Source: Polyangiaceae bacterium
Lineage (GTDB): Bacteria; Myxococcota_A; Polyangia; Polyangiales; Polyangiaceae
Direction of reading: 5' to 3'
Assembly: GCA_009780955.1 (NCBI GenBank)
Contig: WQZB01000005.1
Span: 1 to 64,000, forward strand
Length of the DNA: 64,000 nt
A program made the translations under genes and the position numbers. Below are positions 2,777-62,587 of this stretch, in pieces. Below the pieces are notes generated by a model that made no database searches, had not been told where the DNA came from, and saw nothing but the letters and a program-made list of their open reading frames with translations. Numbering within the stretch: the first letter of the stretch is position 1; every line of letters begins with the position of its first letter.

Positions 2777-2798
2777 GACCGCTTTCAAGTTGGCGCGA
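2777..2798 (+). repeat. Class-1 left-end fragment
   Basis: GACCGCTTTCAAGTTGGCGC matches the class-1 left terminus with one substitution (A to G). No right end follows. It lies upstream of the PilZ-AMIN gene in the gap to the carboxylase gene. Confidence 0.7.
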
Positions 2799-7596: not shown

Positions 7597-7621
7597 GACC
7601 GCTTTTCGATTTGACGCGGTC
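7597..7621 (+). repeat. Class-1 mini-palindrome
   Basis: The 25 bases start GACCGCTTTTCGATTTGACG and end GCGGTC. They read as the class-1 right terminus in reverse orientation closed by GGTC. The copy lies two bases after the pyrH stop codon and could fold into a short hairpin. Confidence 0.65.
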
Positions 7622-7658
7622 TCTTCTATTGCAAGCTGCACGGATCTCGAAGGAACCC

Positions 7659-10163
7659 ATGAACCAGACGCCGCGTGCTACCCCCATTGCCATCGCCTTC
7701 GGCCTGCTCGGTGCCCTTGCGGGGGCGGGGCTTTCACTTGGCGGGCTTGCCGGTCTCGCCGGTTGCAGCAAAAAAAGCGCCGAGCAGCAGTTGAGCCAGG
7801 AACAAGTCTCCGAACTTCGCAAAAACGTATCCGCGATGCCCATGCATGAAGCGCTGCCAAAGTGGCGCGCGTGGGCTAAAAATGGCGATGTTCCGAAGCT
7901 GCAGGAAGAGGCATTCGAGCAGCTTGCATGGGCGAAGGATCGCGATGGTCTTCCTCTCATCGTCCAAGGGCTCGACTCGACCGACCACCGCGTTCGTGGC
8001 ACGGCCGCCACCGCACTGCTCGAATATGGTTCGCCAGCGGCCGACAGCGCAAAGCCCGCGCTGCTCAAAGCGCTCAAAGAATCGGACACCAGCGACAAGC
8101 CGCAAATCATTTGGGCGCTTGCCACCCTGCACGAGCCCTCGGCGTTCGATGAAGCCATGGAGGAATACCGCGCGGGGCGCCTCGCAACCGTGCAGCGCCT
8201 CGACGGCAACCCGGCATTCGATCCTGAAGTGATGGCGTCGATGGTGCCAATCGACAAGCTTGCAGGGCTTTCTGACGATCCGAGCGACAGCGTTCGGCAG
8301 CTCGTGGCTACCGCGCTGTCGCGCAATGCCGATCCGAAGTTTACCGATGTTCTCATCAAGCTCGTCGAAGACAAGTCCGTCGAGGTTGCGCGCGAAGCAG
8401 CCGTCGGCCTTGGTAAGATTGGAAGTGAGCGGGCCATGCGACCGCTTCTCGACGCGCTCGCGAAATCCGACAGGGAATCGCGTCAAAGGTTTCTCGAAGC
8501 GCTACGCGACGGCGTGGGCGGCAAGGGTCTTATGCTTGCCCTTCGCAGCATCGACAAAAGTAAGCGCGAGACCGAAAAGTTTCAGACGAAGCTCATTTTC
8601 GACATGCTCAAATCGCTCGAGGATCCGCGCGCGAGCGATTTACTTGTAGAATACATCGCTACGGCGCAAAACCCGCACTGGAAAACTGAAGCGGGGTTGC
8701 GCCTTGCCGAGGTGGGCGATTTGCGTGCGGTGCCAACACTCAGCTGGCGCATGACGCAAGACCCATTAGTCATTTACGACAAAGACCTCGATTTCGAATA
8801 CCGTCAAGACGATAACGAGCGCGTCGTTTCCGCGCGCCTGCTTGCCGACCTTGCCATTCTCAATCCGAGCAAGCGCGCCGAGATCCGTGAGGCTGCTTAC
8901 AACGGCATCTACGCGTGGATTACAAGCAAGCCCCAACCGCATGCCAACGGTATGAGGTTTATGGCAGCCACCGAGGCAAAGGAAGCGTTGCCAAAGATGC
9001 GGGTGTGGGCAAAACCCTCGGTGCCGTTCCCGAAAGAGGGGCAGCAACCACCATTCCCACCGGAGTGGGGCACAGCGCAGAGCGCGCTTCGTTACATCGG
9101 TTGGATGCGAGATCCGGCAGCCTGGCCGATCCTTGACATGCAGCTTCGCCGACGCCCCGCGAACATCGATGCAACGATGGAAGCGCTCAACCAAGGTGGC
9201 ATGGCCGTGATGGGCATGACGTTGCGCGCCCTCGGCATTGGCGCGGCTCACGGCTTTGCGCAATGGGGCGATCCGAAAGCCTACCCATTGCTTGTAAAAT
9301 ACATCGAAGACAAGCAAAACAACGAACAGGCTCGCACCGAGGCTTGTTTTTCGCTCGGGTGGGTCGCAACCGACAACCAGATGCAAGAGGTCGTGCAGAA
9401 AATTCGCGACTTCGACAAGGTCGACCCGAAGGCGCAGTTCATTCGCAGCTGCTACCTCGAAAGCCTCATTCGCCATCCCGTTCCCGAAGCAACCGCGGGG
9501 CTCGTCGATCTCCTCATCAACCAGCTCGATCTCGAAGTTCGGCATCAGGCGGCACGCGCGATTGGCTTTGGTGGCATCACCCGCGAGGTCAAAGATCGCC
9601 TCATGGTAAAGCTTTCCGACTCGGCGGCGCGCAACGACGCGGCGCTCGCCCTGCTCCTCGGCGGCGACGAAGACACCGTGCGTCGCATGATGGGCACTTA
9701 CAACAACATCGACCCAGCAAGCATCGAGGAACTCAAAGCCATTTACTCGCAGACCTTCGGCTACTTTAGTGATCGCAACTACGAGAAAGGCGATGTTGCG
9801 CGTTGGGTCCGCAACGCCACCGCAGTTTCGCGCATTCGCGTTCGCGACAAGCTGCAGATCTGGCCGAGGCTCATTCTCTCGCGCGCCCTTCAGGGTATCG
9901 ACTCCGACAACGGCCCGCATTCGGTCACACGCGTGCAAATGCGCGTGCGCCTCATGCGTGACGCACACGGCGACGACTCGCTGAAGCGCAGCGAAGCCAT
10001 CGCGATTCTGAAATTCATGGGCGAAAACGGGGTGCTCATGGCGCTCAGGAGCGAAGCGGGCCCCTGGCAAGAGCCGGCGCGTCAGGCTCTTTTCGAACTC
10101 ATGAACCCGGCGGCCGTGACCGAAGCACTGCCATCCAAGCCGCAAGCAGGCACCGTGCATTGA
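7659..10163 (+). CDS. Large HEAT-repeat lipoprotein
   Basis: This is an 834-residue protein with a signal peptide ending in the lipobox GLAGC (Cys about 36). The mature part consists of alpha-helical HEAT/PBS-like repeats, for example DHRVRGTAATALLEYG, DKSVEVAREAAVGLGKIG and DLEVRHQAARAIGFGG, spread over almost the whole length. Such solenoids act as protein scaffolds; no catalytic motif was seen. The ATG at 7659 is chosen because GAAGGAA precedes it and the signal peptide follows at once. The frame is open upstream to 7572, but that stretch overlaps pyrH and the mini-palindrome. The next lipoprotein gene starts within its stop codon. Confidence 0.75.
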   Translation: MNQTPRATPIAIAFGLLGALAGAGLSLGGLAGLAGCSKKSAEQQLSQEQVSELRKNVSAMPMHEALPKWRAWAKNGDVPKLQEEAFEQLAWAKDRDGLPLIVQGLDSTDHRVRGTAATALLEYGSPAADSAKPALLKALKESDTSDKPQIIWALATLHEPSAFDEAMEEYRAGRLATVQRLDGNPAFDPEVMASMVPIDKLAGLSDDPSDSVRQLVATALSRNADPKFTDVLIKLVEDKSVEVAREAAVGLGKIGSERAMRPLLDALAKSDRESRQRFLEALRDGVGGKGLMLALRSIDKSKRETEKFQTKLIFDMLKSLEDPRASDLLVEYIATAQNPHWKTEAGLRLAEVGDLRAVPTLSWRMTQDPLVIYDKDLDFEYRQDDNERVVSARLLADLAILNPSKRAEIREAAYNGIYAWITSKPQPHANGMRFMAATEAKEALPKMRVWAKPSVPFPKEGQQPPFPPEWGTAQSALRYIGWMRDPAAWPILDMQLRRRPANIDATMEALNQGGMAVMGMTLRALGIGAAHGFAQWGDPKAYPLLVKYIEDKQNNEQARTEACFSLGWVATDNQMQEVVQKIRDFDKVDPKAQFIRSCYLESLIRHPVPEATAGLVDLLINQLDLEVRHQAARAIGFGGITREVKDRLMVKLSDSAARNDAALALLLGGDEDTVRRMMGTYNNIDPASIEELKAIYSQTFGYFSDRNYEKGDVARWVRNATAVSRIRVRDKLQIWPRLILSRALQGIDSDNGPHSVTRVQMRVRLMRDAHGDDSLKRSEAIAILKFMGENGVLMALRSEAGPWQEPARQALFELMNPAAVTEALPSKPQAGTVH

Positions 10164-15591: not shown

Positions 15592-16946
15592 CGTGTTCCT
15601 TCTTTTCGCGCAGCCACGATGTTGGCAAACGAACGCGAACGAAGTTCGGCCAAGGTCAAGCCCGTGGCAGAAACGTCGGCTTCGTCGAGAGCGCCGCACG
15701 ATAGGCCGCGAAGGAAGAAGTTCACCAAGCCTTGCCCGGTGGCAGCGTCGTCGAACACCTGACCCAAGCGCGTTGCCTTGGTAGCGCGCTCGACGAACAC
15801 GGCAAGCCGCCTTGCCATGGCTTCGCGCTCACCGAGAAAAAACGTGTAAAGCGCACCAAGCCGTGCGGGGATTTGCGCGGGGTGAAGATCCCAACCCTGG
15901 TAAATGCCAACACCTAGCGCGTGGCGAACGTTGGCGGCGTGAAGCTTCCAGGCGGCGTGGACATCGGCCATGTTGTCGGCGAGTTCGGCACAAGTGAGTG
16001 GCAAGGGGCCTGCCTTGTGCCGGCCGATTGGCAAAAGGGTCGTTGCGCCATCGACCACCGCCACGGGTGTGTCAGCAAGTGCAAACTGCATGATCATGCG
16101 CGCGGCATCGCACGCGGGGTGATCGAGGCGTTGCTCGCTCGCCGTCACACCGAGTGCTGCCGACAGATCGTAAGCACCGAGATGCGCGGCCACGGCCCGG
16201 CCTTGCGCCGCGGCGACGAGCGCAGGCAGTGCGCATGCGCCGTTCCGATCGACCAGCGCGCGTGGCGACTCGATCATGAGCTCGATGCCAACGGCGTGCT
16301 GCGGCAGGCCAAGCGCGCCTTCAAGCATGGCAAGCAGGCTTGCGAGTGCCGAAACCTCGGCGGCGGAGTCGACCTTTGGCAAGGTCACGGTGAAGCCCCG
16401 TGGAAGAGCACCAACCAGGCGGACGAGCGTTGTGAGGAACGCGTCGAGCGTTCGCACACTGCGAGCGCGCGTAGCCGGCGAAAGCGCTTTGACTCGAATG
16501 CCAACGATGGGAGAGCTCGCGTCGGCGGCATTCGCGAATGGCGCAAGGTGAGCGAGCTCCGTGGCGGCTCGCACGCTATCGGCGTCTTCTTCGGCGTCAG
16601 GCCGCGGCCCGTAGCCATCTTCGAAATCGATGCACATGGCATCAATGGGAGCGCTTGCAAGCTTTTGCCGAACGCGGTTCCATAACGCCGGGGCGAACGC
16701 GGCTTTGGCACCTACGATCGATCCGAACTGCACGCTGCCCTTTCCGAACGTTTCCATGGCCGACGCTGCAAGCTTTCCAAGCTTGGCTGGCGCTTCTGCC
16801 TTGAACAAGTGCGCGCCACCGTAAAGCACGTGCACCGGCCGCCGCGCGTGCGATTCCCCCGCCACACTGGGGACAGGTTCGCTTTCTTCGAGCCGTGCAA
16901 AAACCGCGTTCACACGCTCTGTTGCAAGAGCCAACGAGACTGTCAT
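15588..16946 (-). CDS. HpcH/HpaI or citrate-lyase-like aldolase (DUF6986-like)
   Basis: This 452-residue TIM-barrel-type protein contains DAMCIDFEDGYGPRPDAEED (acidic metal and CoA-proximal segment), GFTVTLPKVDSAAEV, VGIELMIESPRALVD (the Glu in ELMIE is the usual metal ligand) and HLGAYDLSAALG. These are hallmarks of the CitE/HpcH/malyl-CoA lyase superfamily. GIYQGWDLHPAQIPARLGA resembles the conserved Asp-x-His-Pro motif near the end. The substrate is unknown. The ATG at 16946 starts directly before the family homology; the frame is open further upstream but overlaps the divergent methyltransferase gene. It is coupled to the YciI-like gene. Confidence 0.75.
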   Translation of the reverse strand: MTVSLALATERVNAVFARLEESEPVPSVAGESHARRPVHVLYGGAHLFKAEAPAKLGKLAASAMETFGKGSVQFGSIVGAKAAFAPALWNRVRQKLASAPIDAMCIDFEDGYGPRPDAEEDADSVRAATELAHLAPFANAADASSPIVGIRVKALSPATRARSVRTLDAFLTTLVRLVGALPRGFTVTLPKVDSAAEVSALASLLAMLEGALGLPQHAVGIELMIESPRALVDRNGACALPALVAAAQGRAVAAHLGAYDLSAALGVTASEQRLDHPACDAARMIMQFALADTPVAVVDGATTLLPIGRHKAGPLPLTCAELADNMADVHAAWKLHAANVRHALGVGIYQGWDLHPAQIPARLGALYTFFLGEREAMARRLAVFVERATKATRLGQVFDDAATGQGLVNFFLRGLSCGALDEADVSATGLTLAELRSRSFANIVAARKEGTR

Positions 16947-17824: not shown

Positions 17825-17996
17825 GACCGCTTTCAAGTTGACGCGAGGTCGAGGCGGGGCCGAGGTGCGTGTGCTGGATAGCACACGCACACGCCGTCGC
17901 ACGGCTCCGTCAGGAGCGGACCGGAACAGCCTGCTTCGGCTTTGAGGACCGCACCGCAGGCACCAACGAAGAGATCGCGTCAAATCGAAAGCGGTC
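17825..17996 (+). repeat. Class-1 TIR element, copy B with internal hairpin module
   Basis: The element is 172 bp, with normal ends but about 49 extra bases in its left half. The extra part contains a perfect 11-bp hairpin (17865-17875 with 17880-17890, loop GGAT) and a 5-bp hairpin at 17893-17905. The copy lies between two convergent genes. Its last bases help form the kinase stop codon (17995-17997). Confidence 0.9.
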
Positions 17997-19737
17997 AAGC
18001 GGCTGCGACGTCTAGCTCTTTGAAGAGCGGCGCCAGTTCGGCAATGGTTCGCAAAGGCTTACAAAACTGAGTCGTCAGCTCGAAAAGCTTCGTTTCGAGT
18101 GCGTCGGCCTCTTTGCCATGCGCCTCGATGCGCTGGCGACACATTGCACGTTCCTGGTCGAGATCTTGCTCGTGCCGTGCGAGTGCGCCTCGAAGCTCGC
18201 GGATCTGAAAATCAAGATCGTTGACGCTTTGACCGGCGCCCTCCACCGCCACCTGCGCTTCGTTCTCCTGCGCGCGCAGAGCAGCCCATTCGTCAACCGC
18301 ACTGGCAGCGGCGCGGTATGCGGCGGACAAGTCGGGCCACGGCTCGGCAAAGGCCGATCGCCCCTCCCAGAACAGCACGTCTTTGTGGAGCGACAGGTAG
18401 TTGTCGCGCGTTCTTGCACTCGCTGCCTCGGCATGCGCGAGGGCCTCGTGAGCGGCCCGAAGATCCTCTTTGGCCTTCGACGCATCGATGCCAAGCGCTT
18501 CGACGGCACAACCAAGTTGAGTGCGTTTTTCTCGCCCTCGCGTTTCGATTTCTTCAAGCTCGCCTTGCGACAAAGCGCCTTCGTTGCGCAGCTCGAGTCG
18601 CTCTTGCACGACGCGACCAACCTCGTCGAGCAATGCCGTAAGATCGTCCGGAGCAAGATCTTTGCTGCCGAACGCACACGTAAGCATTCGCTCGAACACA
18701 ACTAGCCTTCGCATCCAAAGATCGCTCGACGCTGCGCCGAATGAGTCTGCCGATGTCACGTTGCTGACTGGCGCGTCGTCGTCGGTTGGGGGTGCAGGTG
18801 CTTCGCGCTGATGCAAGATCGCGAGCAGCTCGTGGTGGATGCGATGCGCGTCGATCGGGCGATCGTTTGGGTCTTTCGCGAGCGTCTTCACGACGAGCGC
18901 GTCGAGCGCCTCGGGCACACGCGGGTTGCGCGACCGCACCGGCGGCGGTAGTTCGATCATGTGCTTGGTGAAGAACGACGCGAGATTCGTTGCATCGAAC
19001 GGCAAAGTTGCGGTCAGCATCTCGAAGAAGACAACGCCTAACGCATAGAGATCGCTCGAGCCGGTTGCGTCGCCGCCCATGATGCGCTCAGGAGCCATGT
19101 ACTGCGGCGTTCCGAAAAGCTCGCCATGACCCGTGAGGCGCGAGTAGTGACCGCTTTTCGCGATGCCAAAGTCCAAGATTTTCACGAGGTCCGTGCCGTC
19201 GTCGCGTTTGCAGAGAAAGATGTTTTCAGGCTTGATATCCCGGTGAATCACGTCGAGATCGTGCGCGCGTGCGATGCCTCGCGCGATTTGGATCATGACA
19301 TTCAACGCGCGATCGACGTTCATTGGCCCACGGCGAATGCTCACCGCGAGCGACTCGCCGTGGAGCAGTTCCATCACGATGAACGAGCTTCCGTCTTCGG
19401 TGTCGCCCTGATCGAAAATCTCGATGATGTTCGGGTGCGCGAGCATTTGCGCGCTGCGCGCCTCACGCCGAAAGCGTTCGCGAACAACAGGGTCTACGGC
19501 CAGCATTGGGTTCATGATCTTCACGGCAACCGGCCGATCGACGAGCTTGTGCCGGGCGCGATAAACCGTGGCCATGCCGCCTTCGCCGATGACGTCTTCG
19601 ATGACGTAGCGCCCCGAAAGCAACGTGCCGATCCGCGGATCTTGTAGCGGTTCGAGCGAAGCCCCATCGATGAAGCAGTACGTTGCTTCGCTCGGATACC
19701 GCATCGCGCATGTTGTACAGGTCTTCACGGGTTTCAC
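17995..19737 (-). CDS. Soluble Ser/Thr protein kinase with zinc ribbon and coiled-coil tail
   Basis: The 580-residue protein starts with a small zinc-ribbon-like motif (CTTCAMRYPSEATYC). A Hanks-type kinase domain covers about 44-300: GEGGMATVYRA (P-loop), PVAVKIMN (Lys), HRDIKPEN (catalytic loop), DFGIAKSG and YMAPERI. No membrane span follows. Residues about 345-570 are Glu/Ala/Leu-rich and coiled-coil-like. The GTG at 19737 is kept because an internal ATG would remove the first Cys pair. Substrates are unknown. The TGA is formed at the boundary of class-1 copy B. It is divergent from the VanW gene, with a 102-bp gap likely to hold both promoters. Confidence 0.9.
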   Translation of the reverse strand: MKPVKTCTTCAMRYPSEATYCFIDGASLEPLQDPRIGTLLSGRYVIEDVIGEGGMATVYRARHKLVDRPVAVKIMNPMLAVDPVVRERFRREARSAQMLAHPNIIEIFDQGDTEDGSSFIVMELLHGESLAVSIRRGPMNVDRALNVMIQIARGIARAHDLDVIHRDIKPENIFLCKRDDGTDLVKILDFGIAKSGHYSRLTGHGELFGTPQYMAPERIMGGDATGSSDLYALGVVFFEMLTATLPFDATNLASFFTKHMIELPPPVRSRNPRVPEALDALVVKTLAKDPNDRPIDAHRIHHELLAILHQREAPAPPTDDDAPVSNVTSADSFGAASSDLWMRRLVVFERMLTCAFGSKDLAPDDLTALLDEVGRVVQERLELRNEGALSQGELEEIETRGREKRTQLGCAVEALGIDASKAKEDLRAAHEALAHAEAASARTRDNYLSLHKDVLFWEGRSAFAEPWPDLSAAYRAAASAVDEWAALRAQENEAQVAVEGAGQSVNDLDFQIRELRGALARHEQDLDQERAMCRQRIEAHGKEADALETKLFELTTQFCKPLRTIAELAPLFKELDVAAA

Positions 19738-23255: not shown

Positions 23256-23399
23256 GTAGGGGCGCGATTCATCGCGCCCGCCCGCAACATTTTCGAATCC
23301 ATACCATTGGCCGATCCCGAGGGCGCGATGAATCGCGCCCCTACATCCAGGAAATAAAAATAGCGCATTTCGTAGGGGCGTATGGCCATACGCCCCTAC
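23256..23399 (+). repeat. Class-2 hairpin triplet
   Basis: The hairpin cores are CGATTCATCG, CGATGAATCG and TATGGCCATA, in that order. The spacers include TACCATTGGCCGATCCCGA and an A-rich stretch. The array sits between the convergent transglycosylase and FadL-type genes. Confidence 0.85.
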
Positions 23400-23411
23400 T
23401 CGCCAGATCGA

Positions 23412-41213: not shown

Positions 41214-41285
<72 letters not shown>

Positions 41286-41359
41286 CAACGAACTCCACAC
41301 GTCGCGAGTCCCCTACGTCGATTGGGTCGATTGCTCTGCACGAGCAGGCAATCGCAGCG

Positions 41360-43579
41360 TTGCGCGAGCTGCTTGCCGGCTTCGAGCGTGCCGAGCGTGC
41401 AGGCAAAGCCGCCGGTGGCGCGGTTCTCGGTGACGTTCGGAACAACCCCCGCCATCGTCAAGAAATCTACCTTGGGCTCGTGACTGTGCTGATGCGCATG
41501 GTCTTCGTGCTCTACGCCGAGCCGCGCGGTCTTTTGCCGAGGGAAAGCGATTTGTACTCGCTTGCCCGCCTGCATGCGCAGTTGCTTGAAGACTGCAAGG
41601 CAACCGGGACAGGCGGGAAAACGGGAGCAAGCGCGCTTGACAATCGCTGCGGCGCGTGGGCATGCGTCATCACACTTTTTCGCGTTCTGTACGACACTAA
41701 AAAGGGCGCGCTTTTCAATCCCGCCACCTATCCATTCTTGGATGCCCGACCGCACGTAAGCGACGGCGTGGTCTTTCGCGTTCTCGATCACCTCCTGGTG
41801 CCGAACGGCGAGCGGCTCGAATACGAAAGTGTCGACGTCGAGCAAATCGGCGACGTGTACGAAGGGCTAATGGGCTTCGAGCTACGAGTCACGCAAGGCG
41901 AATCGCTGCATCTGCAACCTAGCGAGGAGCGGCGAAAAACGGGAAGCCACTACACTCCGCGCAGCCTGACGCAACTCGTGGTGCAAACAACGCTGCGCCC
42001 GATCCTCGATGCCCTTGGCCCACAACCAACACCGGGGCAGATTCTCGCCCTCAAGATTTGTGATCCTGCGATGGGCAGCGGCGCATTCCTCGTCGAAACT
42101 TGCCGTCAGCTTGGCGATCACCTCGTGGCTGCATGGCACCGCGAGCAACCCCCGATGCGCAATGAGAATCCAGACCGCTTTCAAGTTGACGCGAGATCGA
42201 GGCGGCCGGCGAGGAGCGGACCGGAACAGCCTGCTTCGGCTTTGAGGACCGCACCGCAGCCGCCAACGAAGAGATCGCGTCAAATCGAAAGCGGTCTTGC
42301 ACGCTGCATGATCGCGCAGCGTTGCATCTACGGCGTCGACAAGAACGAGCTGGCCGTGAGCCTCGCGCGCCTGTCGCTTTGGCTCGTCGCCTTCGCGAAA
42401 GACCATTCGTTCACGTTCGTGGATCACGCGCTTCGACAAGGCGACTCGCTGATTGCATTCCACTGGGAAATCGAGTTCCCCGAAGTTTTCGACCATGGCA
42501 ACGGAGCGGGCTACACAAGTGGGTTCCATGCCTTTGTCGGCAACCCGCCGTGGGTGTCTTACGCAGGCCGAGCCGCGCAGCCACTCGATGAGGCGAAGCG
42601 CGCCTATTTCAAAGAGTTCTACGAATCTTTCGGCGGGTACCGAAACTTGCAAGGAATGTTCGTTGAGCGCTGTGCAAAGTTACTTCGTGCCTCCGGACGC
42701 CTGGGGCTAATCCTACCCAGTTCGATGTCTGAGCAAGACGGCTACAGCCCAACCCGCTTGGTGCATGATCGGCTCTGCGTTTGCGACGACGATCTTCCTG
42801 ATCTCGGCGAAAAAGCCTTTGCGGGCGTGTTCCAGCCATGCATGCTGCTAAGGTCCACCCGGCGCGCGTCGCCCGTTACCATCAACGTTGCTGCATGCTG
42901 GCCCATCGAGCGCCCTGATCTCGATGCCGCGTCGCGTGCTCTCATGGCAAAGATGAATCGGCCACCTTTGCCAGAGTGCCTTTTCGGTGAGCGCGGTCTT
43001 CAGTCATCACGCGATGACACCGGACACTTGACCACTGCACGAAATGCGATCCATTCGGTGCCGCTGCGTGTGGGTGGCGACATCGAGCCGTTCCTTCTCA
43101 AGCCACCGTCGCAATTCGCGGACCCAGCGTGGTTCGGCACGAGACTTCGTTCTGCCGGGCAGTGGGCGGAGGTTCGCGTGCTCATTCGGCAGACGGCGCG
43201 CTTTCCAATAGCAACGCTTTCCGATGGCACTGCCTTCCGCAACTCAATCCTCGCCGGGTTTGCGAGCATTGATTATCCGGCTGAATTTCTCGTCGCGTAT
43301 CTGAACTCAACGCCGATTCGTTGGCTGCACTACGTCCGATATCGCGACGCGCGCCAAGGAATGCCGCAGATGAAGATCGGGCACTTGCGCGCGATGCCGT
43401 CGCCGCCGGCTGGCTCCCTGGTTGCCGATCTGGCCAGGATGGGACGCGCCCTGTCGTCTGCCAACGTTGGCCTTCTTCCGAGCGCACACAACGCAATCGA
43501 TGACGCCGTGGCCCGTGCGTTCAACCTTACGAAGCGCGAACGCGCGCTTCTGAAAGCATGGGCAAAGGCAACTCGATGA
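41360..43579 (+). CDS. N6-adenine DNA methylase of Eco57I/type IIG kind, probably 5'-truncated, with an internal repeat
   Basis: The protein has 739 residues from TTG at 41360. LMRMVFVLYAEPRGLLP is the segment preceding the methylase in Eco57I-type enzymes. CDPAMGSGAFLVETC is the SAM motif, CIYGVDKNELAVSLARLSLW follows, and FVGNPPWVSY is the catalytic NPPW motif. LLRASGRLGLILPSS and a target-recognition-like C-terminus complete it. The frame is open from within tRNA-Val and no ATG or GTG lies before the conserved part. Full-length relatives have a nuclease or helical N-terminus, so this one looks truncated. Residues from DRFQVD to QIESG come from class-1 copy C. It overlaps the second methylase by 4 bp. 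Confidence 0.75.
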   Translation: MRELLAGFERAERAGKAAGGAVLGDVRNNPRHRQEIYLGLVTVLMRMVFVLYAEPRGLLPRESDLYSLARLHAQLLEDCKATGTGGKTGASALDNRCGAWACVITLFRVLYDTKKGALFNPATYPFLDARPHVSDGVVFRVLDHLLVPNGERLEYESVDVEQIGDVYEGLMGFELRVTQGESLHLQPSEERRKTGSHYTPRSLTQLVVQTTLRPILDALGPQPTPGQILALKICDPAMGSGAFLVETCRQLGDHLVAAWHREQPPMRNENPDRFQVDARSRRPARSGPEQPASALRTAPQPPTKRSRQIESGLARCMIAQRCIYGVDKNELAVSLARLSLWLVAFAKDHSFTFVDHALRQGDSLIAFHWEIEFPEVFDHGNGAGYTSGFHAFVGNPPWVSYAGRAAQPLDEAKRAYFKEFYESFGGYRNLQGMFVERCAKLLRASGRLGLILPSSMSEQDGYSPTRLVHDRLCVCDDDLPDLGEKAFAGVFQPCMLLRSTRRASPVTINVAACWPIERPDLDAASRALMAKMNRPPLPECLFGERGLQSSRDDTGHLTTARNAIHSVPLRVGGDIEPFLLKPPSQFADPAWFGTRLRSAGQWAEVRVLIRQTARFPIATLSDGTAFRNSILAGFASIDYPAEFLVAYLNSTPIRWLHYVRYRDARQGMPQMKIGHLRAMPSPPAGSLVADLARMGRALSSANVGLLPSAHNAIDDAVARAFNLTKRERALLKAWAKATR
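42173..42296 (+). repeat. Class-1 TIR element, copy C, inside the methylase gene
   Basis: This copy has 124 bp because it carries one extra C (GGCGGCCGGCG instead of GGCGGCGGCG). It is translated as part of the methylase. Without the extra C, the entry frame would hit TGA within the element (CGGCTTTGA). With it, the frame is open to the end and continues into the conserved CIYGVDKNE motif. Confidence 0.9.
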
Positions 43580-44511
43580 GTGCCCCTAAACTTTTCTGGC
43601 CTGGCAAAGAGCGGGCTCTGAAATCGCGTCCAATCGGAAGCGGTAAAGCGCCAAAAGTGTGGATGGCCGAAGGCTACGGTCGTCTCATCCACGGCGACAA
43701 TCTCGCGGCGCTCGAGTCTCTCTTGCCGGAGCTGACAGGCAAGGTAATGCTCGCCTATCTCGATCCGCCGTTTCTCACGAACAGGGCGTTTCGAACGCAC
43801 GGGAATGAATTTGCTTTCGACGATCGCTGGTCGGGGCGCGCCGAATATCTCACGGCGCTCGGTCAGCGCCTCGTGCTCGTCCGCGACCTCGTCGCGCCAA
43901 ACGGCTCGGTGGTCATCCACGTCGACCCGAAGATGAGCCACTACATCAAAGTGCTTGGCGACGAAGTCTTTGGCGACGATGCCTTCGCGAGCGAGATCAT
44001 TTGGCGATACCGGCGCTGGCCGAGCAAAACTTTGAATTTTCAGCGCGTGCACGACGTGCTTTTGCGCTTCCGAAAGGATCCGAAAGCAAAGCCTCGCTTC
44101 AACATGCTTTACGAGCCGCTCGCGCCGTCAACGGTCGCAACGTGGGGCACGAACAAGCAGCGTGCTGTTTTTGAAGCCAACGGGCGCCGCAAGCGCTCGC
44201 AAACAACCTCTGAAAAAACCAAGGGCGTGCCCATGGGCGATGTGTGGGACATCGGCATCATCGCGCCGGTATCACGCGAACGAACGGGCTACCCGTCCCA
44301 AAAGCCGGAAGCGCTGCTCGATCGGCTCATCACCTCGCTCACCGATCCGGGCGACATGGTGCTCGACCCCTACATGGGCAGTGGAACCGCCATTGCCGTT
44401 GCTGCCAAGCGCGGACGCATGTTCGTGGGCATTGACGAGAGCGATGTCGCTCAAGAGATCGTCCGCACGCGGCTCGTAGCAGCGGGCGTGCAAATGGCCG
44501 GCGCCGCCTGA
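43576..44511 (+). CDS. Site-specific DNA methyltransferase, second methylase of the locus
   Basis: A 311-residue beta-order methylase. LIHGDNLAALESLLPEL leads into DPPFLTNRAF (catalytic motif), HVDPKMSHYIKVLGDEVFG follows, and the C-terminal DPYMGSGTAIAVAAKRG binds SAM. The ATG at 43576 overlaps the TGA of the upstream gene (ATGA), so translation is coupled. Near the N-terminus, residues of KSRPIGSGK are encoded by a stretch matching a class-1 right end at 22 of 24 bases. A restriction partner was not found. Confidence 0.85.
   Translation: MSAPKLFWPGKERALKSRPIGSGKAPKVWMAEGYGRLIHGDNLAALESLLPELTGKVMLAYLDPPFLTNRAFRTHGNEFAFDDRWSGRAEYLTALGQRLVLVRDLVAPNGSVVIHVDPKMSHYIKVLGDEVFGDDAFASEIIWRYRRWPSKTLNFQRVHDVLLRFRKDPKAKPRFNMLYEPLAPSTVATWGTNKQRAVFEANGRRKRSQTTSEKTKGVPMGDVWDIGIIAPVSRERTGYPSQKPEALLDRLITSLTDPGDMVLDPYMGSGTAIAVAAKRGRMFVGIDESDVAQEIVRTRLVAAGVQMAGAA
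43621..43644 (+). repeat. Class-1 right-end fragment within the second methylase gene
   Basis: The stretch begins AAATCGCGTCCAATCGGAAG and ends CGGT. It differs from the right end of copy E at two of 24 positions. It could be a fossil insertion, but chance similarity cannot be fully excluded. Confidence 0.55.
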
Positions 44512-44548: not shown

Positions 44549-44673
44549 GTAGGGGCGCCATTCATGGCGCCCAACCGCTGGCGGATCGCCGATACCGAGA
44601 GCGCGCGATGAATCGCGCCCCTACAACCAACAAAACGCACATTCGTAGGGGCGCAGCATGCTGGCGCCCCTAC
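44549..44673 (+). repeat. Class-2 hairpin triplet
   Basis: The cores are CCATTCATGG, CGATGAATCG and GCAGCATGCTGGC. The spacers include GCCGATACCGAG and AACCAACAAAACGCACATT. The array lies between the second methylase and the GH13 gene, both on the plus strand. The frame of the GH13 gene is open back into it. Confidence 0.85.
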
Positions 44674-44685
44674 CGCGCGCCGCGC

Positions 44686-47600
44686 GTGAACGAGTCGCAG
44701 GCTGCGATCGCAACGCAAACCAAAGGGCTTTACCTTTTCAGTCCTTTTGGTCGGCCTCGAGCGGAGCTAAAAGCTCAGATCATGCACGCAAGGAAAACCG
44801 CTCGTGACGCGTACCTTCCGACGCGCAACGACGACGCGTTCTTCACTCCCCGCGGCGATATCACCTTCGCCGGCACCACGGCAGCACGCGTTTTCGCCCA
44901 TCGCGTGAACGAAACCGACAGGCGCTCAGGAGAAGCGCTTTTGCGCCCCGCCGAGCTCGCCGCAATGGCGCTCGTGCACGAGATCTTCCACGTTGTCATC
45001 GAGCTATTCCGAAAGCGTCATCCCACGAGCTTCGAGCGTTTGCTCGCCAAGCTCGACGTCGATCTCGCGGGCACCACGCGCGAAACGGTGCTCGCGTTTT
45101 TGCACACGTTTCCTCCTCCTGCCATCTACAGCCACGTGCGCGGCGACGGCAACGAAACGCCCGAGAAGCTCGTTACCCGCGAAGGGCGCAAAGCCGAAGA
45201 CGTGTTCACCGAAGAGGTGCTGCTTCTCTGGCTCGTCAATCAGAACCCGGCGTACGATCCGGTGCGCAGCATCGTCACCGATTACGATCTCGGCCACGCC
45301 TACCAAGCCTTGGTGCGCGAGGCGCGAAGCCACTTCGACAGCGAAGCGCCTTTCGGACCGCGAGGTCAGAGCCTCATCGATTTGCTCCTCGAACCAAGCC
45401 GCCGCAAACCGAAGTCGATTCTCGAACAGCTAAAACTCATCGAAGAAGAATGGGGCCAAGCCCTTGGACTCGACCAGCTCGATATCTGGCGACGCGTGCT
45501 TTGGGCACGCGACTTTTTGAACGAAGAGGGCAAGTACTTCTATCGAGGTGGCCCTGGCCCAGGCTCGCCCTTGCTCGACGCGATGCGTTTTCGCCGCTCG
45601 GAGGCAGAGCCAAAGGCATTCAGTGCCGATCTCGATTGGATGCCGCGCGTCGTGCTCATTGCAAAAACGGTTTACGTGTGGCTCGACCAGCTCTCGAAAC
45701 AATACGGCCGGCACATCGAAAGGCTCGATCAGATCCCTGACCAAGAGCTCGACATTCTGGCTTCGCGCGGGTTTTCAGGGCTCTGGCTCATCGGGCTTTT
45801 CGAGCGAAGCCTGGCGTCAAAGAAGATCAAGCAAATGCGCGGCGATTCGGACGCGGTGGCTTCGGCCTATTCGCTCAAGTCGTACGACATTGCTTGGGAG
45901 CTTGGCGGTTTTGCCGCTTACGAGAACCTCAAGCACCGCGCATGGCAGCGCGGTATTCGCCTCGCGGCTGACATGGTTCCAAACCACGTGGGCATCGATG
46001 CCAATTGGGTCATGAACCACCCCGACTGGTTTTTGCAGGCCGATCATCCGCCGTTTCCGAGCTATCGCTTTGGCGGCGCCGATCTCAGCGACAACGATCG
46101 CGTCGGAGTTTTCATCGAGGAGGGCTACTGGTCCAACACCGATGCAGCCGTTACTTTCCGCCGTCACGATCGGCACACCGGCCACGATCGCTATTTGTAC
46201 CACGGCAACGACGGCACGAGCATGCCGTGGAACGACACCGCGCAGCTCGATTACACCAAGCCCGAGGTTCGCCACGCGATCATCGAGACAATCTTGCATG
46301 TTGCACGCATGTTCCCGATCATCCGCTTCGACGCGGCGATGACGCTCGCGAAGCGGCACTTCCAACGCCTTTGGTTCCCGCTACCCGGCAGTGGCGGCGC
46401 CATTCCTTCACGCTCCGATTACGCGCTGACGCAGGAAGAGTTCGACCGAAGAATTCCCGTCGAATTTTGGCGCGAGGTCGTTGACACGGTCGCCGAGCGC
46501 GCCCCCGATACGCTTCTTCTTGCTGAAGCGTTCTGGATGATGGAGGGCTATTTCGTTCGAAGCCTGGGCATGCACCGCGTCTACAACTCGGCGTTCATGA
46601 ACATGCTCAAGCGCGAAGAGAATCAGAAATACCGCGAAACGATAAAAAACGTTTTGGGTTACGAACCTGAGATTCTCAAGCGCTTCGTCAACTTCATGAA
46701 CAACCCTGACGAGGAAACGGCGGCCGTTCAGTTCGGCGGCGACGACAAGTACTTCGGCGTGTGCGTGCTCATGAGCACCATGCCGGGCCTGCCCATGTTT
46801 GGTCACGGCCAAATCGAAGGCTTTCACGAGAAGTACGGAATGGAATACCGACGCGCGAAGTGGGACGAGCGACCCAACGAAGGCTTCGTGGCCCGCCACG
46901 AGCGCGAGATTTTCCCGCTTTTGAAGAAGCGATATCTCTTCAGCGGTGTCGACCGATTCGCGTTCTACGACTTCGTGGCCGATGGCGGCGGTGTCGACGA
47001 AGACGTGTTCGCGTACTCGAATCAAGTCGGCGACGAGCGCGCAGTTGTATTTTACAACAATAAATTCAAAAGCGCGCGCGGGCGCATCCACACGAGTTGC
47101 CCGTCGCTCGGCGAAGACGGGCAAGGGCGCACGACTCACATCGCCAACGTGCTTGGCCTTTCCGCGGCAGGCGGCGATTGGATGCGCTTTCGCGACATGA
47201 CCAAGGGGCTCGAATATTTGCGTCACGTGGCCGACATTGGCGGCGGCTTTTTCTGGGAGCTTGGCGCGTTCAAGTACCACGTTCTGATGGAATTCCGCAG
47301 GGTCACGGCCACCGCGGAAGAACCGTGGGACAATCTCGCGGCCTCACTCGGTGGCCACGGGGTGCCTTCGCTCGACAGGGCCCTCGTCGAGCTGCGTTTC
47401 AGGCCCGTACACCAGCCGCTCGCGCATGCGCTTTCGCGAGGACATGTCGACTATTTGCTCTCGGGCTGGGATGACAAAAAACGAAAGGTGAAAGACGACG
47501 TGCTCGCGGCGTTGGGCGAGCGGCTCGGTCACTTTGCCGACGGGCTTGGATACATGCGCGGTGATCTTGCTCCGAACGTGCGAAAAGGCGTGCTCGACAA

Positions 47601-48228
47601 GGCGCGTGCACGCTTCGAAGTCGTCATGAGCATGGCGCACGCGCCATCGGACGACTCGCAGCCATCGCATAAGCCGCCGAACGCCGTCAAACCGGAAGAG
47701 GCGTCCGCACAGCAATCGCAGGATTCCCTCAAACCGGAAACCGCATCCATGTACGTTGCGCCGTCGGTGCTCGTGCGGTGGGTAGAGCTGCGAGCGGCTG
47801 TCGACATGATCAAGACAGTCGAGGCAATCGCAGCCACGCCTGCAGGCATTGTTTCGTCGTGGGAGCTCGCTCTGCCGGTGACGAGTGCGCAGGGCGACTC
47901 GTACGAAGCGCAGCTCGAAGCAACCTTGGTGTTACTCGCTGCAACTCTGCCCGAGGCGCCGTTGCGCCAAACCATGCGTGCGGCGCTGTCCGATACGCGC
48001 GGTGTGACATTTCTCGGTGTACACGACGCAGGCGGAGAACGCTGGCTCGTCAAAGAGCGCTTCAACGAGCTTGCAGCCGCCCTTGCCGAGCGCAACGTCG
48101 CGCTCGGCATCACGAGTCGCGCGATCGCGCAAAGCCAGGCAACCGAAGTTGCGGCCATCGCCGATCGCGAGGGCTATCGAGCCGCCGCTATCGAAAAAGC
48201 ACTAGCAGCCAGACCGCTTTCAAGTTGA
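44686..48228 (+). CDS. Giant GH13 alpha-amylase-like protein
   Basis: The protein has about 1180 residues, much longer than typical amylases. After an N-terminal 350-residue helical region, the GH13 barrel shows ADMVPNHVGIDANWV (region I), IIRFDAAMTL (nucleophile Asp), LLAEAFWMME (acid/base Glu) and FMNNPDEETA (third acidic residue). A C-terminal helical part of about 350 residues follows. It likely acts on alpha-glucans or maltosides; specificity is unknown. GTG at 44686 is chosen because codons upstream come from the class-2 array; no good Shine-Dalgarno sequence is seen. The stop codon (TGA at 48226) lies inside class-1 copy D, so the last residues (RPLSS) are repeat-derived. Confidence 0.8.
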   Translation: MNESQAAIATQTKGLYLFSPFGRPRAELKAQIMHARKTARDAYLPTRNDDAFFTPRGDITFAGTTAARVFAHRVNETDRRSGEALLRPAELAAMALVHEIFHVVIELFRKRHPTSFERLLAKLDVDLAGTTRETVLAFLHTFPPPAIYSHVRGDGNETPEKLVTREGRKAEDVFTEEVLLLWLVNQNPAYDPVRSIVTDYDLGHAYQALVREARSHFDSEAPFGPRGQSLIDLLLEPSRRKPKSILEQLKLIEEEWGQALGLDQLDIWRRVLWARDFLNEEGKYFYRGGPGPGSPLLDAMRFRRSEAEPKAFSADLDWMPRVVLIAKTVYVWLDQLSKQYGRHIERLDQIPDQELDILASRGFSGLWLIGLFERSLASKKIKQMRGDSDAVASAYSLKSYDIAWELGGFAAYENLKHRAWQRGIRLAADMVPNHVGIDANWVMNHPDWFLQADHPPFPSYRFGGADLSDNDRVGVFIEEGYWSNTDAAVTFRRHDRHTGHDRYLYHGNDGTSMPWNDTAQLDYTKPEVRHAIIETILHVARMFPIIRFDAAMTLAKRHFQRLWFPLPGSGGAIPSRSDYALTQEEFDRRIPVEFWREVVDTVAERAPDTLLLAEAFWMMEGYFVRSLGMHRVYNSAFMNMLKREENQKYRETIKNVLGYEPEILKRFVNFMNNPDEETAAVQFGGDDKYFGVCVLMSTMPGLPMFGHGQIEGFHEKYGMEYRRAKWDERPNEGFVARHEREIFPLLKKRYLFSGVDRFAFYDFVADGGGVDEDVFAYSNQVGDERAVVFYNNKFKSARGRIHTSCPSLGEDGQGRTTHIANVLGLSAAGGDWMRFRDMTKGLEYLRHVADIGGGFFWELGAFKYHVLMEFRRVTATAEEPWDNLAASLGGHGVPSLDRALVELRFRPVHQPLAHALSRGHVDYLLSGWDDKKRKVKDDVLAALGERLGHFADGLGYMRGDLAPNVRKGVLDKARARFEVVMSMAHAPSDDSQPSHKPPNAVKPEEASAQQSQDSLKPETASMYVAPSVLVRWVELRAAVDMIKTVEAIAATPAGIVSSWELALPVTSAQGDSYEAQLEATLVLLAATLPEAPLRQTMRAALSDTRGVTFLGVHDAGGERWLVKERFNELAAALAERNVALGITSRAIAQSQATEVAAIADREGYRAAAIEKALAARPLSS

Positions 48229-48334
48229 CGCGAGATCGAGGCGGCGGCGAGGAGCGGACCGGAACAGCCTGCTTCGGCTTTGAGGACCGCACCGCAGCCG
48301 CCAACGATGAGATCGCGTCAAATCGAAAGCGGTC
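48212..48334 (+). repeat. Class-1 TIR element, copy D
   Basis: The 123-bp element differs from copy A at one base. It lies between convergent genes and contributes to both stop codons: TGA of the GH13 gene (48226-48228) inside the left end, and TGA of the lipoprotein gene (48333-48335) at the right boundary. Confidence 0.95.
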
Positions 48335-48951: not shown

Positions 48952-49074
48952 GACCGCTTTCAAGTTGACGCGAGTTCGAGGCGGCGGCGAGGAGCGGACC
49001 GGAACAGCCTGCTTCGGCTTTGAGGACCGCACCGCAGCCGCCAACGACGAAATCGCGTCAAATCGAAAGCGGTG
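48952..49074 (+). repeat. Class-1 TIR element, copy E
   Basis: The 123-bp element has four differences from copy A, including G for the final C. Together with copy D it brackets the small lipoprotein gene as a direct repeat. It ends 10 bases after the stop codon of the HAD gene. Confidence 0.95.
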
Positions 49075-53848: not shown

Positions 53849-53975
53849 TGAGGGGCACCCACAAGGGATGCCCCTACGAAGAATGCGTTTTGTTAGCGGT
53901 CGCGTGTAGGGGCGTATGGCCATACGCCCCTACGAACGGGTCTTGATGGCTGTAGGGGCGCAGCATGCTGCGCCC
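53849..53975 (+). repeat. Class-2 hairpin triplet read into a protein tail
   Basis: The cores are CACCC...GGATG (with AGGGGCACCC/GGATGCCCCT arms), TATGGCCATA and CAGCATGCTG. The minus-strand protease gene runs through the second and third hairpins. Confidence 0.85.
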
Positions 53976-56300: not shown

Positions 56301-56310
56301 GCCGCGGTAG

Positions 56311-56404
56311 ATCCTGAGGGCGCGATGAATCGCGCCCCTACAACCAAAAACGCATATCCGTAGGAGCACCCCTTGTGGGTGCCCTATGGGGCGGCCCCTA
56401 CGGG
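56311..56404 (+). repeat. Class-2 hairpin array overlapping mqnD
   Basis: Core CGATGAATCG is followed by the AACCAAAAACGCATAT spacer, then GTAGGAGCACCCC/GGGTGCCC and GGGGCGGCCCCTA. The TAG of mqnD (minus strand, 56398-56400) is part of the last element. Confidence 0.8.
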
Positions 56405-57278: not shown

Positions 57279-57337
57279 GACCGCTTTCAAGATCCCGAGG
57301 GCGCGATGAATCGCGCCTCTACAACCAACAAGCGGTC
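57279..57337 (+). repeat. Composite class-1/class-2 element
   Basis: The 59-bp element has class-1 tips (GACCGCTTTCAAG and AGCGGTC) enclosing a class-2 hairpin (GGGCGCGATGAATCGCGCCT, then CTACAACCAACA). The right tip forms the stop codon of the neighbouring minus-strand gene. Confidence 0.85.
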
Positions 57338-61516: not shown

Positions 61517-62587
61517 TTATCGTCGAAACACGTCGTCGATGCGCTCGGCGACAAGGGTCCGCTCCGTCCATCGACGGAGCTCGTCAACCGTTGCCTTGGC
61601 GATGCGACTCTCAGCGGCGACATCGAGGGCACCGAAGCGCAGGCGAAGAAGGCTCGTGAGCGTGTCGCTAATGCCTTCGCGGAGCCCTTGCTGGACACCT
61701 TCGCGGAGCCCTTGCTGGACGCCTTCGCGCAGCCCTTGCTGGACGCCTTGCTGGACGCCTTCGCGCAGCCCTTGCTGGAGCCCTGCTTTGCGGCCTTCTT
61801 CGATGAGTCGCTCGGCAAGTGTCACGTAGGCCTCCTGAACGTTTTCGCCAACGTCCTCGGCGAGAATGGCGTCGATGATGTTGGCATGTTCATCGTTGCG
61901 AACATACGCAATATAGCGCAAAATTGCTTCTAGCCCTTCTCGTCCATTCTCCGCCTCGCCGAGCTCGCGAAACGCCTGAGCCCACAGGGTCAGGGCGTCG
62001 GCGGAAAACCGCCCGCCTCGAGCCGTCCGCAGCGCCCACAAGACCAACCGCGACACCGCCGTCATCGCGCGGCCGTAGAGCTCCTCGTCGCTCGCGTGGC
62101 TCAGATCGTCCACACAAAATTGGAAGTCAGGCACGTACGCTCGCGCCGCTTGGAGTGACTCGCCATCCAAGTCGATGAGGTCCAGCAGGCGCGTCGCCGC
62201 CGTCCAGCCGGTCTCACTATGGTGAAGAACCACGGGGATGACGGCCGGCAGCCGCCGCGCGTCGGGGTGATCGCGCAACCAGTTTTCCCACACCCGGCAA
62301 ATGTAGCCGAGAAGCCGATACGGCATCAGCCCATCGACCGTGCTTTGGTGCTCGAACAGAAGATAGAGAAACGCTTCGCGCTCGCGGAGTTGAACCGAAT
62401 AAAGAAGGTCGGTGTGTCGTTCGCGGAGCGTCTCGTCCACGAAGCTTCCGGGGCGGAGCTCCAGGCTCTTGAAGTCCATCGCCTTGACGAGCGCCGAAGG
62501 AAGCACCGAGCAAAACTCTCCCGCTGCGTTCGTGACGTCGGAGAAGACACGCTTGAAGAGCGCATCGTGCGGGTTATTGCTCGCCAT
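61517..62587 (-). CDS. Rpn family PD-(D/E)XK nuclease/recombination-promoting protein
   Basis: A 356-residue protein. NPHDALFKRVFSD opens the domain; ERHTDLLYSVQLREREAFLY and LFEHQSTVDGLMPYRLLGYI contain the nuclease acidic residues, and IPVVLHHSETGW follows. The Rpn/YhgA family was linked to RecA-independent horizontal gene transfer. The C-terminal part has near-exact 8-residue repeats (QQGLREGV) encoded by a 24-bp tandem repeat. The ATG at 62587 begins the conserved domain. Class-1 fragments lie on both sides, and a truncated TetR gene adjoins it. Confidence 0.85.
   Translation of the reverse strand: MASNNPHDALFKRVFSDVTNAAGEFCSVLPSALVKAMDFKSLELRPGSFVDETLRERHTDLLYSVQLREREAFLYLLFEHQSTVDGLMPYRLLGYICRVWENWLRDHPDARRLPAVIPVVLHHSETGWTAATRLLDLIDLDGESLQAARAYVPDFQFCVDDLSHASDEELYGRAMTAVSRLVLWALRTARGGRFSADALTLWAQAFRELGEAENGREGLEAILRYIAYVRNDEHANIIDAILAEDVGENVQEAYVTLAERLIEEGRKAGLQQGLREGVQQGVQQGLREGVQQGLREGVQQGLREGISDTLTSLLRLRFGALDVAAESRIAKATVDELRRWTERTLVAERIDDVFRR
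61673..61780 (-). repeat. 24-bp tandem repeat in the rpn gene
   Basis: About four copies of a 24-bp unit, close to TTCGCGGAGCCCTTGCTGGA plus four bases, with one 12-bp partial copy, encode QQGLREGV-type octapeptides. Copies differ by one or two bases. Confidence 0.85.

Follow-up and report, generated by a model that had tools for sequence, protein, structure and literature searches.

A mobile palindromic element inserted in frame in protein-coding genes of two sister species of Polyangiaceae

The closest described systems are the Rickettsia palindromic elements (RPEs). In the work of Ogata et al. (2000, 2002), as related in PMC2229807 and PMC10969869, these are palindromes of 105-146 nt that lie in frame in conserved genes, and for one RPE-bearing enzyme of Rickettsia, Gmk, both translation and activity have been demonstrated (PMC2229807). 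In-frame palindromic repeats of a similar kind have been reported in protein genes of Wolbachia (Ogata et al. 2005, as cited in PMC2229807), and gene fusions of the 107-bp Correia and 127-bp ERIC elements are also on record (PMC2229807, PMC2759123). The occurrence of palindromes in frame in housekeeping genes has been described as nearly unique to Rickettsia and Wolbachia, and a 2024 review treats the same happening elsewhere as only conceivable (PMC10969869). Our literature search, which covered a minority of subscription journals, returned no report of such an element for the group of the Polyangiaceae bacterium studied here. In this genome and in that of a sister species (G010), in-frame insertion of a mobile palindrome is real, and a DNA methylase gene is the first-seen of at least 12 cases.

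Like the RPEs, the present element is palindromic (here 121-139 nt), has terminal inverted repeats and a stable hairpin, and occurs in frame in many unrelated conserved genes whose orthologues lack the insert, as well as between genes, in small genomes. An earlier, sequence-only reading of the locus had pointed to this resemblance, which holds for the way of working (in-frame inserts, hairpin, insert-free orthologues); no sequence kinship is claimed. Unlike the RPEs, the element belongs to another bacterial group, of high G+C, and forms one main family of ~190 mostly intergenic copies, most of which (the 123-nt form) cannot pass a frame. Its likeness to the Wolbachia repeats, by description, lies in in-frame palindromes within protein genes, although those repeats were described in Rickettsiales. 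With the 127-bp ERIC/RU-1 and 107-bp Correia elements it shares a MITE-like character, a similar size, open frames fused to genes, and TA at the ends. As with Correia (155 bp versus 107 bp), a stop-containing form is kept intergenic, here 123 or 172 nt versus 124 nt. ERIC/RU-1 and Correia have TA at their termini and a target-site duplication, whereas in the present element TA is common on one side only. The QMITE1 and QMITE2 families of Coxiella likewise overlap annotated bacterial genes, but QMITE1 is 300-400 bp long with small ORFs of its own and is not an in-frame spacer of housekeeping genes (PMC5896051). These comparisons suggest that the element works in the same way as the palindromic elements of Rickettsia and Wolbachia, and we do not file it as an RPE.

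The window analyzed is the first 64 kb (64,000 nucleotides) of contig C5 in a 4.2-Mb genome of 112 contigs. A repeat had been read at 42173-42296 as inserted in frame in a DNA methylase; it lies at exactly that position, is 124 nt long, and sits inside an open 783-aa ORF (Table 1). The window also contains three 123-nt copies, one 172-nt long form, and remnants. The element's arms are inverted repeats of 22-23 nt with the terminal sequence GACCGCTTTC, its main form is 123-124 nt, and it contains no ORF other than the read-through frame. The long form, seen at 17825-17996 and in other copies, combines the same arms with additional internal sequence, and copies as short as 46-90 nt are present too.

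Table 1. Element copies, their parts, and the methylase genes in the window
Feature	Position	Strand	Remarks
Palindromic element, 124-nt copy in methylase	42173..42296	+	~42 codons in frame; absent from homologues
Left terminal inverted repeat of methylase copy, GACCGCTTTCAAGTTGACGCGA	42172..42194	+	91% complementary to right arm
Right terminal inverted repeat of methylase copy, TCGCGTCAAATCGAAAGCGGTC	42275..42297	+	91% complementary to left arm
Extra-base site of methylase copy	42206..42209	+	GGCGGCCGGCG in this copy; GGCGGTCGGCG in most of the remaining 124-nt copies; GGCGGCGGCG in those of 123 nt
123-nt element copy at contig end	1..123	+	
172-nt long-form element copy	17825..17996	+	Stops in forward and reverse phase-0 frames
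123-nt element copy	48212..48334	+	Its TGA (element base 17) is the stop codon of gene 44608-48228
123-nt element copy	48952..49074	+	
Lone left arm of element (remnant)	2777..2798	+	
Weak partial match to long-form element (remnant)	7598..7677	-	17.5 bits
Host ORF, N6-adenine DNA methylase, 783 aa	41228..43579	+	Eco57I and N6_Mtase domains; DrmMI is the best match in PADLOC; shorter at the N-terminus than homologues
Second DNA methylase (N6_N4_Mtase)	43558..44511	+	Overlaps 3' end of first methylase

Element copies were sampled from ~120 stretches (732 kb) fetched around copies in the genome and were classified with a codon-usage gene finder; the sample contains ~170 full or partial matches. 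Genome-wide searches with the arms returned 369-397 matches versus 0 for a reversed-pattern control; because each pattern is matched by both arms, we infer ~190 elements in this genome. The DNA of the methylase copy recurs at dozens of other places in the genome with 95-100% identity, which, together with the empty control, excludes chance resemblance. Length could be measured in 118 copies, of which 24 are 124 nt and the 123-nt form is commoner. The extra base of the 124-nt copies is a T in 20 and a C in 4. It had been claimed that every other copy lacks the extra C, which is correct for the window but not for the genome, and the 124-nt form is thus a standing length variant rather than a one-off repair. 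As RNA, the element is predicted to fold into one long hairpin of -69.8 kcal/mol, versus -43.5 kcal/mol for shuffled sequences (z-scores of -7.2 and -7.9). Compensatory changes between the arms exceed expectation, with 14 observed versus 2.4 expected at position 2 and 8 versus ~0.1 at positions 3-10. These double changes indicate that matched arms matter or are copied together.

In the methylase, which is followed by the second methylase and then by an amylase-like ORF, the insert is read as DRFQVDARSRRPARSGPEQPASALRTAPQPPTKRSRQIESGL between CDPAMGSGAF and CIYGVDKNELAV. The interval from the SAM motif to YGVDKN is 80 residues here and 43-45 in six of the seven close homologues (L072-L080) in which it is measurable. 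Motifs I and II are naturally farther apart in L074 (69 residues) and in the distant L081 and L083 (66 residues), at the same place, so the loop tolerates changes in length, as had been supposed from the sequence. The proposed comparison with homologous methylases thus shows the segment to be inserted rather than native, since close homologues lack it and the same DNA lies at many intergenic places. In a predicted structure of the methylase, which is too poor to be used (mean pLDDT 44), the insert falls in a low-confidence coil between two helices. When the 123-nt copies of the window are placed in the entry frame of the methylase, they stop at TGA after CTTCGGCTT, again as first read. The extra base within GGCGGCCGGCG is indeed required to keep this frame open; the further suggestion of a special rescue of this copy does not hold, as the 124-nt form is a common subfamily.

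Eight in-frame intragenic copies were found in this genome and four others in G010. The hosts in this genome are the methylase, mtnA (methylthioribose-1-phosphate isomerase), an S9 peptidase, a glycosyltransferase, an AddA/RecB-like helicase-nuclease, an MFS transporter with a 139-nt variant, an Rsm22-like methyltransferase, and a protein-kinase-like ORF that has no Pfam match. In G010 they are tsaB, a luxE-like gene, a PMT_2 glycosyltransferase, and a LigD-like gene. Relatives are insert-free for 10 of the 12 host genes, the other two being the LigD-like and kinase-like genes. Alignments with insert-free relatives of the same genus or family place the gap at a length-variable stretch of the orthologues in mtnA and in the MFS, glycosyltransferase, S9, Rsm22-like, and AddA-like genes. 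The tsaB, luxE-like, and PMT_2 genes of G010 were aligned with insert-free relatives that include the present genome. None of the insertions compared is common to both species, so their origin postdates the split between the two. The LigD-like gene (L211:2051-3649) encodes phosphoesterase and polymerase domains and no ligase domain, and its 121-nt element occupies the site of the relatives' ligase domain; this case is ambiguous because the domain is absent at the same spot. The kinase-like ORF (L169; contig C54 of this genome, near 16076-16111) has a second, diverged stretch ending in SRRESSGL, which matches the right arm weakly (19.3 bits) and is perhaps an older insertion. Three further candidates (C23:36207 and L229 and L240 of G010) were dropped, their ORFs being antisense to or ahead of a real gene.

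Every one of the 12 intragenic copies, in both species, has a 3n+1 length (124, 139, or 121 nt), a further point against the extra base as a private repair. In mtnA, the luxE-like gene, and the PMT_2 gene, the filled version exceeds the empty orthologues by exactly 126 nt, as expected for a 124-nt element with two added bases. In this genome, lengths of 1 mod 3 are found in 8 of 8 intragenic copies and in 27 of the 110 others (Fisher p 3e-5), although this rule is not independent proof of selection, since it follows partly from the open frame by which intragenic copies were recognized. All 12 use one phase from the element edge, GAC CGC TTT, in both orientations and would yield DRFQVDA...SRQIESG or DRFRFDA...SRQLESG. 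In the other phases a stop is reached immediately or after a short distance, at TA|G, T|GA, or the TTGA of base 17. This pattern of length and phase is what a survival filter would predict. No selection on the inserted peptide was seen in the used frame, in which codon changes versus the consensus comprise 3 synonymous and 22 non-synonymous ones. Most likely, the inserted peptide is a tolerated passenger and not a selected domain.

Outside this set, most full-length copies are intergenic in sampled sequence that is 88% coding, and ~7% of the sampled copies are intragenic. Convergent spacers are favoured, holding 37 of 106 placed copies while making up 15% of the intergenic length. Across the genome, elements often provide the stop codon of the adjacent gene: among 117 gene 3' ends at most 60 nt from an element edge, 64 have their stop at base 1 (TA|G), base 2 (T|GA), or base 17 (TTGA) of the element. 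Insertion into stop codons, or trimming of gene ends by the element, may account for this. Two such genes lie in the window, 44608-48228 with the element at 48212-48334 and 17995-19704 with the element at 17825-17996.

An unlikely explanation, though the likeliest of the alternatives, is that insertion killed the methylase and the other hosts, whose ORFs would be open merely because the events are recent. Intragenic copies are young, differing from the consensus at 2-6 positions, the ligase domain of the LigD-like gene in G010 is gone from the place of insertion, and the methylase itself is not full length. Its match to the DrmMI profile PDLC02643 (E 9.6e-119) begins well inside that profile, and it lacks the N-terminal part of homologue L072, or ~230-270 N-terminal residues of its homologues. 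The sole start codon ahead of the conserved region lies within tRNA-Val 41214-41286. With its short N-terminus and a start codon inside a tRNA gene, the methylase makes the poorest case for a working protein and, from its sequence, may be a shortened gene that remained at a tRNA, a relic, or an island edge. Several of its internal loops are also shorter than in L072. A much better case for working hosts is provided by mtnA and tsaB. The tRNA modification t6A depends on TsaB, an essential protein in most bacteria. Both mtnA (this genome) and tsaB (G010) are single-copy, the remainder of each protein is well conserved, and both pass the NCBIfam cut-offs despite the insert (MtnA, 411.8 versus 271 bits; TsaB, 124.6 versus 69.3 bits). 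Moreover, killed hosts should include off-frame or stop-containing copies in conserved genes as often as in-frame ones, and no clear cases were found. The single-copy status and the above-cut-off scores are the best indirect signs that host proteins may still work, and the inserted segments would then be translated.

Removal or skipping of the segment at the RNA level, by self-splicing or bypass, such that it never reaches the protein, is very improbable. The strong RNA hairpin and precise ends are compatible with such a process, but the open frame and 3n+1 length of every intragenic copy would be needless for a spliced or bypassed element, and a search of Rfam returned neither a ribozyme nor an intron. 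At 124 nt, the element is also too short for a known self-splicing intron. Still more improbable is an assembly artefact in which contigs were misjoined through the repeat. Several contigs do start or end exactly in a copy (C5:1, C54:1, C65:1, C45 end, and C8 end), so the element breaks the assembly; yet on either side of each intragenic copy lie consecutive, in-frame halves of one protein, an arrangement that misjoining would not create, and two independent genomes show such copies. That the segment is native methylase sequence, with the other repeats derived from it or alike by chance, is scarcely credible despite the continuous ORF and the long loops of some homologues at this place, as DNA 95-100% identical to it occurs at dozens of sites, mostly outside genes, all close homologues lack it, and copies in either orientation in unrelated proteins, mtnA and tsaB among them, refute it.

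The best overall explanation, which we consider highly probable, is a non-autonomous, MITE-like palindromic mobile element that multiplied in this lineage, is kept inside genes by a filter on phase and length, and is tolerated as a loop segment. A transposase acting in trans would have moved the element. A copy inside a gene would survive only if it entered the open phase of its orientation (GAC CGC TTT...), and it would have to be 3n+1 nt long, such that, with two more bases, whole codons are gained (126 nt for the 124-nt form). The host protein would then tolerate ~42 added residues in a loop whose length varies among orthologues.

The flanks bear on how the element moves. TA is found on the left flank in 50 of 92 copies and on the right flank in 17, and identical flanking dinucleotides number 14 versus the 16 expected from shuffled flanks. 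A simple TA target-site duplication was considered and given up, as TA stands on both sides in just 9 of the 92 copies. The IS630-type transposase (DDE_3, PF13358) is absent from both genomes. In the sampled stretches, arm pairs 1.0-1.5 kb apart hold unrelated genes and no transposase that would mark an autonomous partner, and no longer relative with matching ends was found there. No element match was obtained in viral contigs or plasmids as a possible vehicle. Of 184 genomes of the order, the element occurs in two, this genome and G010, which belong to one genus, and not in the other 182. Both carriers are small, at 4.2 and 4.8 Mb versus 6.6-11.9 Mb for the rest of the genus.

We are evenly divided on whether a palindromic lineage outside the Rickettsiales has independently become protein-inserting. 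Its 3n+1 subfamily, open in one phase in both orientations, would be spreading through coding genes of two reduced-genome sister species as a 41-42-residue spacer in housekeeping enzymes, and its 3n form would stay intergenic or supply gene-end stops. A second, unrelated case beyond Rickettsia and Wolbachia would be a natural test of how mobile elements enter proteins. The test material consists of the same element in at least 10 host proteins, with insert-free orthologues in a sister species, and a single-base length variant would decide survival inside versus outside genes. Because each species lacks the other's insertions, MtnA or TsaB can be compared directly with and without the insert.

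Two other repeats were seen in the window. A second palindromic repeat, GTAGGGGCG...CGCCCCTAC, occurs at 774-821, 2844-2939, 23312-23403, 44592-44633, 53890-53937, 56309-56350, and 57290-57331; it is found too inside degenerate copies of the 124-nt-type element and is like the GTAG-tagged REPs (PMC3733652). At 61641-61808, a tandem repeat based on a 12-nt unit codes for a repetitive segment.
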